A DNA stretch of 51,440 bases from Salinivenus iranica (lineage in GTDB: Bacteria > Bacteroidota > Rhodothermia > Rhodothermales > Salinibacteraceae): the NCBI GenBank assembly GCA_002894665.1, contig NCRB01000017.1, positions 1-51,440 on the forward strand, read 5' to 3'. Position 1 is the stretch's first letter, and the number at the start of each line of letters is the position of its first letter. Both the position numbers and the translations under genes were made by a program. Of the stretch, positions 22,091-28,082 are shown in pieces. The notes under the pieces are model-generated. The model was not told the origin of the DNA and searched no databases. It saw only the letters and a list, made by a program, of their open reading frames with translations.

Positions 22091-22256
22091 GCCCGCGGGG
22101 CTGGGCCCGTGGTTTCCTTTTCTCCCGCGAAGACCGTACATTTTGGGAACGACCGATCAGGCGAACTGAACGTGCCAGGGGTGGGCCGATCCCAACCACT
22201 CGACTCCTGTAACGGTCTCGGAGCGTAGTCGTCCACTGGTCCGACACGCACATGGC

Positions 22257-22282: not shown

Positions 22283-22425
22283 ACATTCGCACTGCGCTTG
22301 TCGCTCCCTCAACGCCTTGGCTCCTCACGGCACCGAACCTGGCATGCAATCTGCGAAGAGAATCGGACACCGAGGAGGGGATTCTCCTGTTCCGTCCGTC
22401 TCCCTTCGCTTGATGCACAGCGTTC

Positions 22426-22998
22426 ATGGCGCACGACGAACCCGACGAGGTCTACGCCCAGCGCGTCCAAGACGGTGATCGAGAAGCGTTCCGTGTCTTA
22501 ATCGAGCGGTACGAGGGCATGGTATTCGACCTCACACACCAGTACAGCAACACTCCGGAGGACGCCGAAGATCTGGCCCAGGACATCTTCCTGAAGGCCT
22601 ATCGGCGGATCAATGACCTCCGGTCTCCCGGCCGGTTTTCCTCCTGGCTGTACGGCATTGCCCTGAACCGCTGTCGCGACTACGCCAAGAATGTACGACG
22701 GGAAACCTACGCGTTTAGCCGAACGGAGGAGCACGACGATGCCGCCGTGACGGACGACCGCCAGCCCGGACAGGACGATCAGCTCGTGGCCGATGAGCGA
22801 TCCGAACAGCTGTGGGACGCCCTGAGCGAGCTCTCTTCCACGTACGCCACCCCCTTCCTCCTCAAATACCGGGATGGCATGACGTACAAGGCCATGTCGA
22901 AGCGCCTGGACGTGTCGGTCAGTGCCCTCAAGGTGCGAGTACACCGCGCCCGCAAAAAGCTTCGCAGCCTACTCGACGACCGTAATGGACACTCCTGA
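22426..22998 (+). CDS. ECF (sigma-70 group IV) sigma factor
   Basis: This 190-residue alternative sigma factor has the two DNA/core-binding regions. Region 2 runs from about residue 10 to 85 (FRVLIERYEGMVFDLTHQYS, EDAEDLAQDIFLKAYRRIND, RFSSWLYGIALNRCRDY). Region 4 runs from about 130 to 185 (LSELSSTYATPFLLKYRDGMTYKAMSKRLDVSVSALKVRVHRARKKLRSLL). The linker between them is acidic. The next gene overlaps it by 14 bases and looks like its anti-sigma factor, so the pair is translationally coupled. Confidence 0.9.
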   Translation: MAHDEPDEVYAQRVQDGDREAFRVLIERYEGMVFDLTHQYSNTPEDAEDLAQDIFLKAYRRINDLRSPGRFSSWLYGIALNRCRDYAKNVRRETYAFSRTEEHDDAAVTDDRQPGQDDQLVADERSEQLWDALSELSSTYATPFLLKYRDGMTYKAMSKRLDVSVSALKVRVHRARKKLRSLLDDRNGHS

Positions 22999-23731
22999 CC
23001 CCGACACACTGGTTCAGCGGTTTCTCGACGGCGATCTCTCGGAGGCCGAGGTCGAAGCGGCCCTGCACCGCATCGCCGACGACGCGGAGGCGCGCGATCT
23101 CCTTCGGTTTGAGCTGCGGATGACGCAGGACTTTGCGGCCTCTCGTTCCCCAGCCCCGCCGCCCGACTTCGCCTCGGAAACCGTCGAGGCCCTCCCCCCG
23201 GCGTCGGACGCCCGCGACTCGTCCCCTGTATCGCTTGGGGACTGGCTTCAGGGGCTCTGGCGGCGAGCTACGCGCCCGGTGACGGTGCCCGTCCGCCCGG
23301 CGTACGCCCTCGTTCCCATCCTGCTCCTAGCCGCAATGGCGTGGGTGCTGTGGCCTGTCGCCCCGTCGTCGACGGCCGGCGGGTCGTCCGTCGAACCCGT
23401 ACAGTCGACCTCCTCGGCCACCTCCTCCCAGCCCGTCGCCGCCGAGTCTGCCGCGCCCGACGACAGAAAGACCGTCTGGATTCGGTTCCTCTACCCCGAT
23501 AACGACGCCGACTCCGTAGCCGTGGCGGGCGACTTCAACCAGTGGCAACCCATCTCGCTCACCCCCCGCACGGTGGACGGCCGCACCGTATGGACCGGAC
23601 TGGTCCCCGTCCCCCGCGGTGAACACGAATATCAATTTGTGATTGACGGAGACCAATGGGTGCCCGACCCCTTGGCCCCCGAAACCCGAAGCGACGGATT
23701 TGGGGCCCAGAACGCCGTACTCGAAGTATAG
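22985..23731 (+). CDS. Anti-sigma-like membrane protein with C-terminal CBM48/AMPK glycogen-binding-like domain
   Basis: This 248-residue protein has three parts. An N-terminal cytosolic segment (residues 1-105) is helical (LVQRFLDGDLSEAEVEAALHRIADDAEARDL), like short anti-sigma domains, but has no Cys, so it lacks the usual zinc motif. A membrane helix lies at about 107-124. A periplasmic domain at about 160-248 has the AMPK-beta/CBM48 pattern: AGDFNQWQP (Trp187), EHEYQFVIDGDQWVPDP (Trp225) and GAQNAVLEV (Asn243). The two Trp and the Asn that contact glycogen in AMPK-beta are kept; the contacting Lys is replaced by Gln217. I infer that a glucan in the periplasm controls the sigma factor. Confidence 0.75.
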   Translation: MDTPDPDTLVQRFLDGDLSEAEVEAALHRIADDAEARDLLRFELRMTQDFAASRSPAPPPDFASETVEALPPASDARDSSPVSLGDWLQGLWRRATRPVTVPVRPAYALVPILLLAAMAWVLWPVAPSSTAGGSSVEPVQSTSSATSSQPVAAESAAPDDRKTVWIRFLYPDNDADSVAVAGDFNQWQPISLTPRTVDGRTVWTGLVPVPRGEHEYQFVIDGDQWVPDPLAPETRSDGFGAQNAVLEV

Positions 23732-23749
23732 GGCGACGTCCCTGCACCG

Positions 23750-24991
23750 ATGACCCGTGTTCGCTTCCTATGTTGGTCTTTGCTCCTCGGGCTCGGCCTG
23801 TGGGGGCCTCTGAGTGCCCCGCCGGCCGCAGCGCAGCAGTGGACCGGTACGGCCTCGCTGGGACTGGCCGGGGGATACCAGACCAATACATACCTCGACC
23901 CGGTGGCGGGCACGTGGAATCCCTCCTTTGCGCCCACCTTCGCCGCCCTCACCCCGCGGCTGGGCCTCACCCACAGCGGGCCGAACACTCGACTCGACGT
24001 CACGGCTCAGTCGCTTCTATACCCTCGCCACGACCGTCGGCCCCAACTGCTTCAGGGATTTGTGGACGGGCACTATCGGCTCAATCCGCAGTGGGCCGTC
24101 GGGATGGTGGGCGGGGCCTCACGCTATCGACTCAGCGTGTCCCGCGACGGCTGGTGGGCCCTTCCCTCCGTCCGATGGACCCCCACCGCGGATGCGTCCC
24201 TGACCCTCCGGGCCGGCGTCACCCAACGCGTCGATCGCTCGACGGCGGCGACGGCCCGCCAGTGGAGTAGCCTCGCCACCGTGCGCGCCTCCTACTGGCT
24301 CACCGAGCAGCTCCGCGGCGACCTCCAGGTGTACCGGAGCGACGGGCGCACGGCCGCCGCGACAGAGTTCGGGTACGGGAGTACCGGCGCCACGCTCTCC
24401 GCCACGTACTGGGCCTCCAACAACCTGTCGCTTACGGCGCGGGCCGGGGCCGAGCAAGTGCAGTACCGGTTTTCCTCGTCGGAGGCCACCGGCTCGCAGC
24501 ACGACCGGGTGGGACGCGTCGGCCTCTCCGCCACGTGGCGGGTGCGTCCCTCGGTCTCCGTGTTCGGTCGCGCACGGGCCCTCCAGGCGTCCCTGGCCGG
24601 TCGTGACGCCGCTCAGTCGGATGTATACCTCGCCGCCGGCGTGCGCCTCCAACTTCAACGGGCCTTCGGGAAGGAGGAAGGCCCCGACGCCTCGTTCCGT
24701 CAGTCGGTCTGCCGCCCCACCGATGCAGGCCTCCGGTTTCGGGTGCCGTACGACGGAGAGGGCACCCCCCACATCACGGGCGTCTTCTCCGGCTGGTCTC
24801 TTCCCGGCATTCCCCTCACCGAAGTGGACGACGGCGTGTGGGGCACCACGGTCGAGGTCGACTCCGGGCGCTACCCGTACCGCGTCCGGGTCGTGGAGCG
24901 TGACGGGGCCCGATGGTTGTCTCTCCCCTCCTACGCTCGCACCGCCGAGGACGCCTTCGGCGGGACCAATGGCGTGTGCATCGTTCCTTAA
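23750..24991 (+). CDS. Secreted outer-membrane beta-barrel with C-terminal CBM48-like domain
   Basis: This protein of 413 residues begins with a signal peptide (MTRVRFLCWSLLLGLGLWGPL...AAAQQ). The middle (about 35-325) shows alternating amphipathic strands typical of outer-membrane barrels, such as RASYWLTEQLRGDLQVYRSD and VGLSATWRVRPSVSVFGRARAL. The last 80 residues (about 334-413) resemble CBM48: HITGVFSGWSLP (Trp349), RYPYRVRVVERDGARWLSLP (Trp388) and GTNGVCIVP (Asn407). This is the second CBM48-like module in the same operon. The gene follows the anti-sigma gene by 18 bases. The barrel function and the binding partner are unknown. Confidence 0.6.
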   Translation: MTRVRFLCWSLLLGLGLWGPLSAPPAAAQQWTGTASLGLAGGYQTNTYLDPVAGTWNPSFAPTFAALTPRLGLTHSGPNTRLDVTAQSLLYPRHDRRPQLLQGFVDGHYRLNPQWAVGMVGGASRYRLSVSRDGWWALPSVRWTPTADASLTLRAGVTQRVDRSTAATARQWSSLATVRASYWLTEQLRGDLQVYRSDGRTAAATEFGYGSTGATLSATYWASNNLSLTARAGAEQVQYRFSSSEATGSQHDRVGRVGLSATWRVRPSVSVFGRARALQASLAGRDAAQSDVYLAAGVRLQLQRAFGKEEGPDASFRQSVCRPTDAGLRFRVPYDGEGTPHITGVFSGWSLPGIPLTEVDDGVWGTTVEVDSGRYPYRVRVVERDGARWLSLPSYARTAEDAFGGTNGVCIVP

Positions 24992-24996
24992 CGAAT

Positions 24997-25947
24997 ATGA
25001 TTCACCGTTACGTGCTACAACGATTCCTCCGCCGGCTCTGGACCGGGGTGGGGCTTCTATTCATGGTCCTCGCCCTCCCGTCCACTTCGTTCGGACAGCC
25101 GGCCTCGGTCTCGTCCCTGCTCGATCGTGCCGAACAGACCGGGGCCGACCTTGAGCTCATGCGCACAGTGGCGGACCGGGCCAGCAACTCCGGCCTTTCT
25201 CCCGCCGCCACGGCCGAGTTGCTTGAACCCGCGGTGGCCCTCGCCGAGCGCGACCTCCCGGCCAGCCCGATCCTCAACAAAGCCCTGGAGGGCCTGTCCA
25301 AACGCGTTCCGCCGAACCGGATGTCCTCCGTTCTCCAGCAGCTGCGCAACCGAACCGAACAGGCCGGCCAACTCGTGTCGACCTGGCTTCAAAAGAACGA
25401 GGTGCGCGCGATGGTCGGGGCCGACCAGGACGCCCCTTCGAAGCGGGGGCGGGCCGACCTCATTGCCAGTGTCGCCGACGCGCAGCAGCAGAAGGTGTCC
25501 CCGGAGGCGATTGAGGCCTTCCTGAATCAGCTTCCCGCAACGACGGAGCGGCGTCCGGTCTCCCTCTCCGACGTGTCGGTGGCGGTCGGCGTGCTTCCAG
25601 ATCTTCCCTCGAACGGAGACTCCCCCGCCGCCGCACAGCAATTGCTGGCCGCAGCCCTCGACGCCGGGTACGACTCCGAATCCATGCGTCAGCTGCCGGC
25701 CGCAATCGAGCGGGCGGGACGCCAGACCCAACGCCCTACGGCAGCCATCGCAAAGGGCGCCGCCCAGGCCATTTCGTGGGGCACCCCCGCCGACAATGTG
25801 CTCCGGAATCTCTTCCGGGGCGTCCCGGCCGCCGGCCCCCCTGCCCAAACGGGGCAGGGAAACCAGGGCCAAAATGCCCCCCCCGGGAACGGGCCCCCGG
25901 ACGATCCGCCTGGGGGCGGGAGTGGGGGCGGAGGCGGCGGTCGATAA
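24997..25947 (+). CDS. Secreted hypothetical protein, Gly/Pro-rich tail
   Basis: This protein of 316 residues has an N-terminal hydrophobic signal (FLRRLWTGVGLLFMVLALPSTSFGQ). The middle is helical and Gln/Ala-rich, with heptad-like stretches (SVADAQQQKVSPEAIEAFLNQ, SPAAAQQLLAAALDAGYDSESMRQL). The end is a low-complexity Gly/Pro tail. No family is recognised. It starts 5 bases after the barrel gene, so it is the fourth gene of the sigma operon. Its repeated helical segments could form a scaffold; this is speculative. Confidence 0.55.
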   Translation: MIHRYVLQRFLRRLWTGVGLLFMVLALPSTSFGQPASVSSLLDRAEQTGADLELMRTVADRASNSGLSPAATAELLEPAVALAERDLPASPILNKALEGLSKRVPPNRMSSVLQQLRNRTEQAGQLVSTWLQKNEVRAMVGADQDAPSKRGRADLIASVADAQQQKVSPEAIEAFLNQLPATTERRPVSLSDVSVAVGVLPDLPSNGDSPAAAQQLLAAALDAGYDSESMRQLPAAIERAGRQTQRPTAAIAKGAAQAISWGTPADNVLRNLFRGVPAAGPPAQTGQGNQGQNAPPGNGPPDDPPGGGSGGGGGGR

Positions 25948-27413: not shown

Positions 27414-28082
27414 ATGGCGAAGGACAAAGCGGAAGTAGTCACCAAAAAGACGGCCTCGTCGGATCGGAAGGCCCGAGACAGCCAGCATGAGGCGCTCCAG
27501 GAGATGAGCGACGAAGACCTCATGTCCCAGTTCCAGGCTGGAACCGTGGAGGCCTTCAATATCCTCGTGGACCGGTATTCGGACCGGCTCATGCAGTACC
27601 TGTATCGCTTCCTCGGCGACATGAAGCGGTGCGAGGACCTGCTGCAGGAGACCTTCCTCCGGGTGCACCGGAACCGGCACTCGTACCGTCGCATTGCCAA
27701 GTTCTCGACCTGGCTCTACACCATTGCCGGGAACCTCGCGCGGTCGGAGTATCGCAAACGGAAGCGGCGGCGCATGCAGTCGATCCAGTCGGTGAACCGC
27801 GACAACGAGGAGTACGAGATGGAGATTCCGGACGAATCGTTCTCCCCGGACAAGCACGCGGAGAGCACGATTCAGGACCACTATATTCAGGAGGCCATGA
27901 ACGAAATTCCCCCGGCCTTCCGCGAAGTCGTGGTGCTGCGGGACATCCAACAGCTGGCCTACGATGAGATTGCGGAGATCACGGGCCTGCCGATGGGCAC
28001 CGTCAAGAGCCGCATCAACCGGGGGCGCACGAAGCTGCAAGCCCTCCTCGAAGACGTGTACCCGTTCCAGGACGAATCGTAA
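27414..28082 (+). CDS. RpoE-like ECF sigma factor
   Basis: This 222-residue sigma factor has a charged N-terminal extension rich in Lys/Asp (about 1-35). Region 2 follows (DLMSQFQAGTVEAFNILVDRYSDRLMQYLYRFLG, CEDLLQETFLRVHRNRHSY, AKFSTWLYTIAGNLARSEYRKRKRR). Region 4 is at about 165-215 (IPPAFREVVVLRDIQQLAYDEIAEITGLPMGTVKSRINRGRTKLQALL). No anti-sigma gene is adjacent, unlike the sigma gene at 22.4 kb, so control may act at another level. A clear terminator follows the gene. Confidence 0.9.
   Translation: MAKDKAEVVTKKTASSDRKARDSQHEALQEMSDEDLMSQFQAGTVEAFNILVDRYSDRLMQYLYRFLGDMKRCEDLLQETFLRVHRNRHSYRRIAKFSTWLYTIAGNLARSEYRKRKRRRMQSIQSVNRDNEEYEMEIPDESFSPDKHAESTIQDHYIQEAMNEIPPAFREVVVLRDIQQLAYDEIAEITGLPMGTVKSRINRGRTKLQALLEDVYPFQDES

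Follow-up and report, generated by a model that had tools for sequence, protein, structure and literature searches.

A CBM48-bearing anti-sigma factor in a four-gene operon

We analyzed a 51,440-nucleotide stretch of Salinivenus iranica DNA (contig NCRB01000017.1; Rhodothermota), in which four plus-strand genes at 22426-25947 encode an extracytoplasmic function (ECF) sigma factor, a membrane anti-sigma factor, an outer-membrane barrel and a secreted helical protein, in the order that a first-pass annotation had read from the letters. Here ‘window’ refers to this whole stretch. The anti-sigma factor carries a periplasmic carbohydrate-binding module (CBM) of family CBM48. In the explanation to which we incline, if only by a little, the operon is an ECF/anti-sigma switch whose remodelled CBM48 sensor, directed to a periplasmic ligand, drives the operon itself and a regulon of envelope lipoproteins. 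For the sigma/anti-sigma pairing and the predicted regulon, the support comes from homology, from adjacency and from conservation of the motif. The features that carry this finding are the following.

22426..22998, plus strand: ECF sigma factor, 190 amino acids (Pfam Sigma70_r2, Sigma70_r4_2)
22985..23731, plus strand: membrane anti-sigma factor with a periplasmic CBM48, 248 amino acids (Pfam, AlphaFold2, profile match, adjacent sigma gene)
22985..23194, plus strand: putative anti-sigma domain with predicted helices at residues 6-15, 20-32, 34-52 and 62-69, and no zinc ligands (AlphaFold2, RsiW profile match)
23300..23353, plus strand: single transmembrane helix at about residues 106-123 (hydrophobic stretch; helix 109-122 in the model)
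23468..23728, plus strand: CBM48/AMPK-beta domain, residues 162-248, with W187, W225, F239 and N243 kept and Q217 in place of Lys (AMPK1_CBM, fold, conservation)
23750..24991, plus strand: predicted outer-membrane barrel with a periplasmic CBM48-like domain, 413 amino acids (AlphaFold2, fold matches, Pfam matches of orthologues)
24997..25947, plus strand: secreted all-helical protein with a Gly/Pro-rich tail, 316 amino acids (invariant partner, 63/63 loci)

The sigma factor matches Sigma70_r2 (E=3.8e-17) and Sigma70_r4_2 (E=5e-15), the ECF regions 2 and 4, and its orthologues in the Salinivenus family are 63-99% identical. With ATG 22985 as its start, the anti-sigma reading frame overlaps the sigma gene by 14 nucleotides; this start is likely used rather than the upstream GTG at 22922.

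The C-terminus of the anti-sigma protein belongs to CBM48, with an AMPK1_CBM match of 37.3 bits against the Pfam cut-off of 26.8 (E=3.1e-9), and a family profile matches the CBM48 of the type II pullulanase 5ot1 (E=2e-11). An AlphaFold2 model was built on a 29-sequence alignment, and its predicted local distance difference test (pLDDT) score is near 97 in this domain. Compared with AMPK-beta1 (1z0m), the modelled domain gave a VIA Z of 13.3 over 80 aligned residues at 1.4 Å, with Foldseek as a second line of evidence for the fold. Structure prediction thus recovers the CBM48 fold that had been proposed for this anti-sigma protein.

For the N-terminal helices, pLDDT is about 92 over residues 11-40, and the family profile matches the anti-sigma domain of RsiW (5wuq) at positions 8-76 (E=1.6e-4). 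Orthologues match the NCBIfam anti-sigma family NF052375, under its cut-off. The N-terminal part in the window has no cysteine and therefore no Hx3Cx2C zinc motif, in keeping with the earlier reading. A class I anti-sigma domain is a three-helix bundle plus a fourth helix, and about 44% of these domains are without the zinc motif (PMC7406223). The helix bundle, its fourth helix and the adjoining ECF gene all have their counterpart here, the zinc motif not being required for class I, so that profile match and model support a zinc-less class-I-type anti-sigma domain.

Between the membrane helix and CBM48, a linker (residues 126-158) is disordered in the model and variable in sequence. In comparisons across phyla, no other part of the protein is nearly as well conserved as CBM48. 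Because 11 genomes of the Salinivenus family retain the operon and the CBM is where the anti-sigma protein is best conserved, the arrangement is, as judged from conservation, not due to chance.

Distribution and the invariant partners

Besides the 11 family genomes, a twelfth (G024) has the genes for the barrel and the helical protein at the edge of a contig. Scanning GTDB genomes and searching the Gemmatimonadota and Nitrospirota placed the operon also in Balneolales, Gemmatimonadota, Nitrospirota and a few metagenome-assembled genomes (MAGs) labelled Deltaproteobacteria or Proteobacteria. At a genome-level threshold of E<=1e-25, the anti-sigma profile matched 78 of 150 Gemmatimonadota genomes and 25 of 118 Nitrospirota genomes, with neighbours checked for part of them.

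The sigma gene adjoins the anti-sigma gene in 70 loci from several phyla. Partners were counted in those with at least 1.2 kb downstream, 63 in number. The helical gene is present in 63 of the 63, and a second CBM48 protein in 41. In Nitrospirota this second protein is small, probably a lipoprotein, and has no barrel; elsewhere, namely in Rhodothermota, Balneolales and part of the Gemmatimonadota, it is the barrel. Because the helical gene never fails and the second CBM48 is both optional and of varying type, the sigma factor, the CBM48 anti-sigma factor and the helical protein are the invariant core. The pair of CBMs that the first-pass annotation had pointed out is not the center of the system, since the second is missing from 22 of the 63 loci.

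The helical protein has an N-terminal signal sequence and a Gly/Pro-rich tail by inspection. It matches no family in Pfam or NCBIfam, and a profile search of the PDB with it returned only a designed helical repeat (E=0.07) and a hypothetical protein (E=0.1). A second helical paralogue lies near the operon in Balneolales (L069 4638-5615, L075 7241-8215). In a MAG labelled Proteobacteria (L081 4479-7357), the gene order is permuted, with the helical gene between the sigma gene and the CBM48 protein gene. As to other CBM48 domains, the only other match near the AMPK1_CBM cut-off in the Salinivenus genome is L002 (G000:C106:4510-4725), and short free-standing relatives of about 100-135 amino acids occur in many genomes of the order.

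Promoter motif and predicted regulon

Two sequence elements lie upstream of the operon in the window.

22208..22236, plus strand: ECF-type promoter TGTAAC-N16-CGTCCAC, about 190 nucleotides 5′ of the sigma start
22340..22354, plus strand: second conserved element TGGCATGCAATCTGC, with sigma-54-like -24/-12 spacing

GTAAC and CGTC elements at near-fixed spacing were found upstream of sigma in all 8 Balneolales operons examined and in 6 Nitrospirota operons, and related elements were seen by inspection upstream of Nitrospira and Gemmatimonadota operons, in variants with TTTAC or GTGAC and CGTCTAA or CGTCTTA. Pattern searches gave 22 matches in Balneolales genomes versus 2 for the reversed control, and 14 versus 0 in one Nitrospirota order. 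From both groups 26 downstream proteins were collected, and 12 of them, all from Balneolales, bear the DUF4382 signature; one of these, scanned by Pfam, matched at E=3e-36. Another target is a carboxypeptidase-regulatory-like lipoprotein, which is motif-linked also in a Salinivenus relative (32% identity over 411 residues), and the second helical paralogue is a target as well. The Nitrospirota targets are small secreted repeat proteins, a DUF5666 lipoprotein and a DUF2202 protein.

At the Nitrospirota loci L187, L193, L217 and L218, the proteins encoded directly behind the motif are small and secreted, with LKDGTG-type repeats and tails rich in Gly. In Balneolales, a short protein with an end resembling a type IX secretion system sorting domain (QNYPNPFNPVT...) is encoded between the promoter and the DUF4382 gene (L199, L202, L203, L207, L210). 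At L178, a helical-like gene and a DUF4382-like fragment share the same promoter.

In the Salinivenus family the motif takes the form TGTAAC-N16-CGTC. It lies ahead of 14 of the 16 DUF4382 loci in the relatives, and a DUF4382 gene stands directly upstream of sigma in several family genomes. DUF4382 genes were located by profile search, and the regulon of the Salinivenus genome itself was drawn from pattern searches. The site at 22208 is the sole exact match within the window. The genome has four exact copies, including the one before the operon and two before its only two DUF4382 genes. Because the reversed pattern has three copies in this genome, single matches are not significant alone, and the significance of these copies lies in their placement. 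The fourth copy, G000:C48:29812 (L262 3313), faces a short, uncertain open reading frame and is close to a DUF4382 gene on the opposite strand.

Operon and DUF4382 genes also occur together: among 27 genomes, 11 have both, 13 neither, 3 DUF4382 only and none the operon only (Fisher p=3.4e-5, which is too optimistic as the genomes are related). One locus with a DUF4382 gene and the promoter motif, L232 (G012:C75), has no detected anti-sigma operon; this assembly is 83% complete and the operon may be merely missing.

Since the GTAAC-N16-CGTC promoter stands in front of its own operon, autoregulation of the sigma factor is predicted. The motif search gave a clear answer as to the regulon: its genes encode lipoproteins, those with DUF4382 among them, or secreted proteins. 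No glycoside hydrolase, glucan transporter or other alpha-glucan gene was recognised among the motif-defined genes. The predicted regulon thus appears to be one of envelope lipoproteins rather than of sugar use.

The element of the TGGCATGCAATCTGC type is found 73-93 nucleotides ahead of sigma in 9 of 11 family genomes, with a single match in the window, and rpoN was found in the genome. As the main operon promoter, this sigma-54-like TGGCAY-N5-YTGC element was displaced by the TGTAAC-N16-CGTC site, which is shared with the DUF4382 genes and is the better candidate. Shortly downstream of the operon, the window has another ECF sigma gene (27414-28082), and a similar sigma gene is near the operon in several relatives.

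A kept but altered binding face

When the anti-sigma CBM48 was aligned to AMPK-beta1 (1z0m), W100 corresponded to W187, W133 to W225, N150 to N243, and K126 to Q217. Both glucan-contacting Trp and the Asn are thus kept, with Lys replaced by Gln, exactly as the first-pass annotation had read them; the full glucan site of AMPK-beta (both Trp, Lys126 and Asn150) is not present. A comparable pattern extends through 97 sigma-linked CBM48 domains. The stacking Trp positions are Trp in 97/97 and 96/97 and the Asn is kept in 96/97, whereas the position of AMPK Lys126 is Lys in 0/97 and Met in 71/97. In the control set, made up of CBM48 domains without sigma linkage from the same scan, Lys is found at this position in 41/47.

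The retained Trp, Trp and Asn suggest that a binding face has been preserved. In AMPK-beta1, W100G and K126Q each abolish glycogen binding (PMC6274970), and the second of these is the residue change seen in the window. Because Lys is lost in all sigma-linked CBMs and K126Q has this effect, we do not favour plain glycogen or maltodextrin as the ligand of what looks like a kept but altered face. On the other hand, plant AKIN-beta2 is without both Lys and Asn and yet binds starch (PMC4032982), and by this analogy the domain may still work like a glucan-binding CBM48.

The outer-membrane barrel and its second CBM48

The barrel protein was modelled by AlphaFold2 as 14 strands followed by a C-terminal beta sandwich.

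23834..24664, plus strand: predicted 14-strand beta-barrel, residues 29-305 (AlphaFold2)
24707..24988, plus strand: putative diverged CBM48-like domain, residues 320-413 (CBM_48 match below threshold; matches of orthologues; beta sandwich in the model)

In the window, the CBM_48 match is under the Pfam cut-off (17.0 versus 22.4 bits, E=0.0078). Orthologues exceed the AMPK1_CBM cut-off (L083 at E=7e-10, L061 at E=2e-6), and the two Trp and the Asn are kept in this domain too, in support of the earlier call of a barrel with a second CBM48-like domain. Such barrels have an even number of strands and both ends in the periplasm. Because the modelled strand number is even and both barrel ends would be periplasmic, the second CBM48 should be in the same compartment as that of the anti-sigma factor.

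The best fold matches of the barrel are CymA (Z=22.7) and OmpG (Z=20.4). Identity is 6-11% (6-7% for CymA), and the likeness is limited to the barrel part, the CBM48 domain being excluded. In the model comparison, this likeness is one of shared 14-strand topology, not demonstrated homology. An identity as EpsL (TIGR03014) was rejected, with a partial match of 29.1 bits against an NCBIfam cut-off of 275.

Comparison with known systems

The nearest known kind is RsgI/SigI of Clostridium thermocellum, in which an anti-sigma factor in the membrane, bearing an extracytoplasmic CBM, controls the alternative sigma factor encoded beside it in an autoregulated operon (PMC4711584). The Salinivenus system shares the extracytoplasmic CBM, the adjacent sigma gene and, as predicted, autoregulation. 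It is, however, not a member. No RsgI domain is matched in Pfam, and the sigma factor is of ECF type with regions 2 and 4, whereas SigI is not ECF. RsgI has its own N-terminal family and CBM3, PA14, CBM42 or GH10 modules that bind plant polysaccharides, and the regulon there is that of cellulosomal enzymes. In contrast, the operon here combines an ECF sigma factor, a class-I-type anti-sigma domain and CBM48 in a Gram-negative envelope, with a predicted lipoprotein regulon.

Parts of the system can be set beside other known systems. The four-helix cytoplasmic domain beside an ECF gene is that of class I anti-sigma factors (RsiW, RskA, RseA), which differ in that the sensor here is CBM48 and the zinc motif is absent in the window. 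The sensor shares fold, sequence family, two Trp and the Asn with AMPK-beta, but its contact Lys is mostly Met (Gln in the window) and it sits in the periplasm on an anti-sigma factor. The joint encoding of an ECF sigma factor, an inner-membrane regulator and an outer-membrane barrel resembles FecI-FecR-TonB. Membership there was rejected, since neither a FecR domain nor a TonB receptor is matched in Pfam and the 14-strand barrel has no plug or TonB features, and carries a second CBM48. The view that the operon is comparable to, but distinct from, TonB-FecR systems therefore stands.

Discussion

In the explanation that we slightly favour, the anti-sigma domain would keep the sigma factor inactive at the membrane until CBM48 binds a periplasmic ligand or partner. 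The ligand would most likely be a carbohydrate, either of the envelope or extracellular, and different from plain glycogen and maltodextrin. Inactivation of the anti-sigma factor, probably via regulated proteolysis, would follow, and the freed sigma factor would switch on its own operon and the surface lipoproteins. The barrel and the helical protein would be co-produced envelope components, which may bring the ligand to the sensor or else belong to the response output. Here we infer ligand binding, proteolysis and the roles of these two proteins.

Some observations weigh against a sugar-binding sensor. With Lys126 lost, the domain might bind no sugar whatever. The CBM48 domains of the CE1 esterases DmCE1A and DmCE1B had no affinity to tested glycans (PMC8040265). 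Moreover, both Trp are kept throughout the CBM48 family, our control set included, and so argue only weakly for a sugar ligand here.

The main rival is an envelope switch that senses protein. In this case CBM48 would be a docking module, and the helical protein, with the second CBM48 where present, would bind the anti-sigma factor and report the envelope state in the manner of RseA/RseB. We regard this as possible, though unlikely. In its favour, no periplasmic partner except the helical protein is invariant, a second CBM48 being present at only some of the loci. Not one anti-sigma CBM has the sugar-contact Lys, and lipoproteins and secreted proteins make up the predicted regulon. In one CE1 dimer structure, furthermore, CBM48 domains clasp each other (PMC8040265). 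However, the aromatic platform and the Asn are kept in nearly all members, no RseB-like domain was found, and the second Balneolales helical paralogue under the same promoter resembles an output, not a regulator.

Classical alpha-glucan sensing, as proposed by the first-pass annotation, would have maltodextrin or glycogen fragments pass the barrel, bind both CBM48 domains and activate sigma. CBM48 membership with the kept Trp, Trp and Asn speaks for it, as do starch binding by AKIN-beta2 and the ranking of the cyclodextrin porin CymA above OmpG among the fold matches. Nevertheless we consider it distinctly unlikely. The Lys is gone from all sigma-linked domains but kept in most controls, the Gln in the window being the very substitution that abolishes glycogen binding in AMPK-beta1, and the motif-defined regulon has no recognised glycoside hydrolase or glucan transporter. 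CymA and OmpG are merely 14-strand barrels at low identity, and in Nitrospirota a lipoprotein replaces the barrel. The first-pass interpretation is thus partly supported as a whole, its glucan signal lacking support in the form proposed.

That CBM48 is a passive structural cap, with the anti-sigma factor sensing otherwise, for instance via the membrane helix or the disordered, variable juxtamembrane linker, is highly improbable, given how much better CBM48 is conserved across phyla than the rest of the protein, with nearly invariant sugar-contact Trp.

Going beyond the slightly favoured switch, one may conceive a so far undescribed class of envelope signalling that spans phyla. In it, a pair of CBM48 domains (one on an outer-membrane barrel or lipoprotein, the other on the inner-membrane anti-sigma factor), together with the dedicated helical protein, would relay the state of envelope or matrix glycans to an ECF factor that builds a surface layer of DUF4382 lipoproteins. 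We offer this tentatively and hold it to be rather doubtful.

Our search of 5.39 million open papers turned up no account of a CBM48 anti-sigma factor, most subscription papers being outside that search. The system is a new version of the CBM-bearing anti-sigma sensors exemplified by RsgI, and it defines a signalling family across several little-studied lineages, the anti-sigma profile being matched in about half of the 150 Gemmatimonadota and a fifth of the 118 Nitrospirota genomes. For DUF4382 lipoproteins, and for a family of secreted helical proteins that Pfam does not have, it offers a predicted regulatory context. With the promoter motif in hand the regulon can be tested directly, and since one and the same sugar-contact residue is lost throughout, a single purified domain would serve to test the ligand question.

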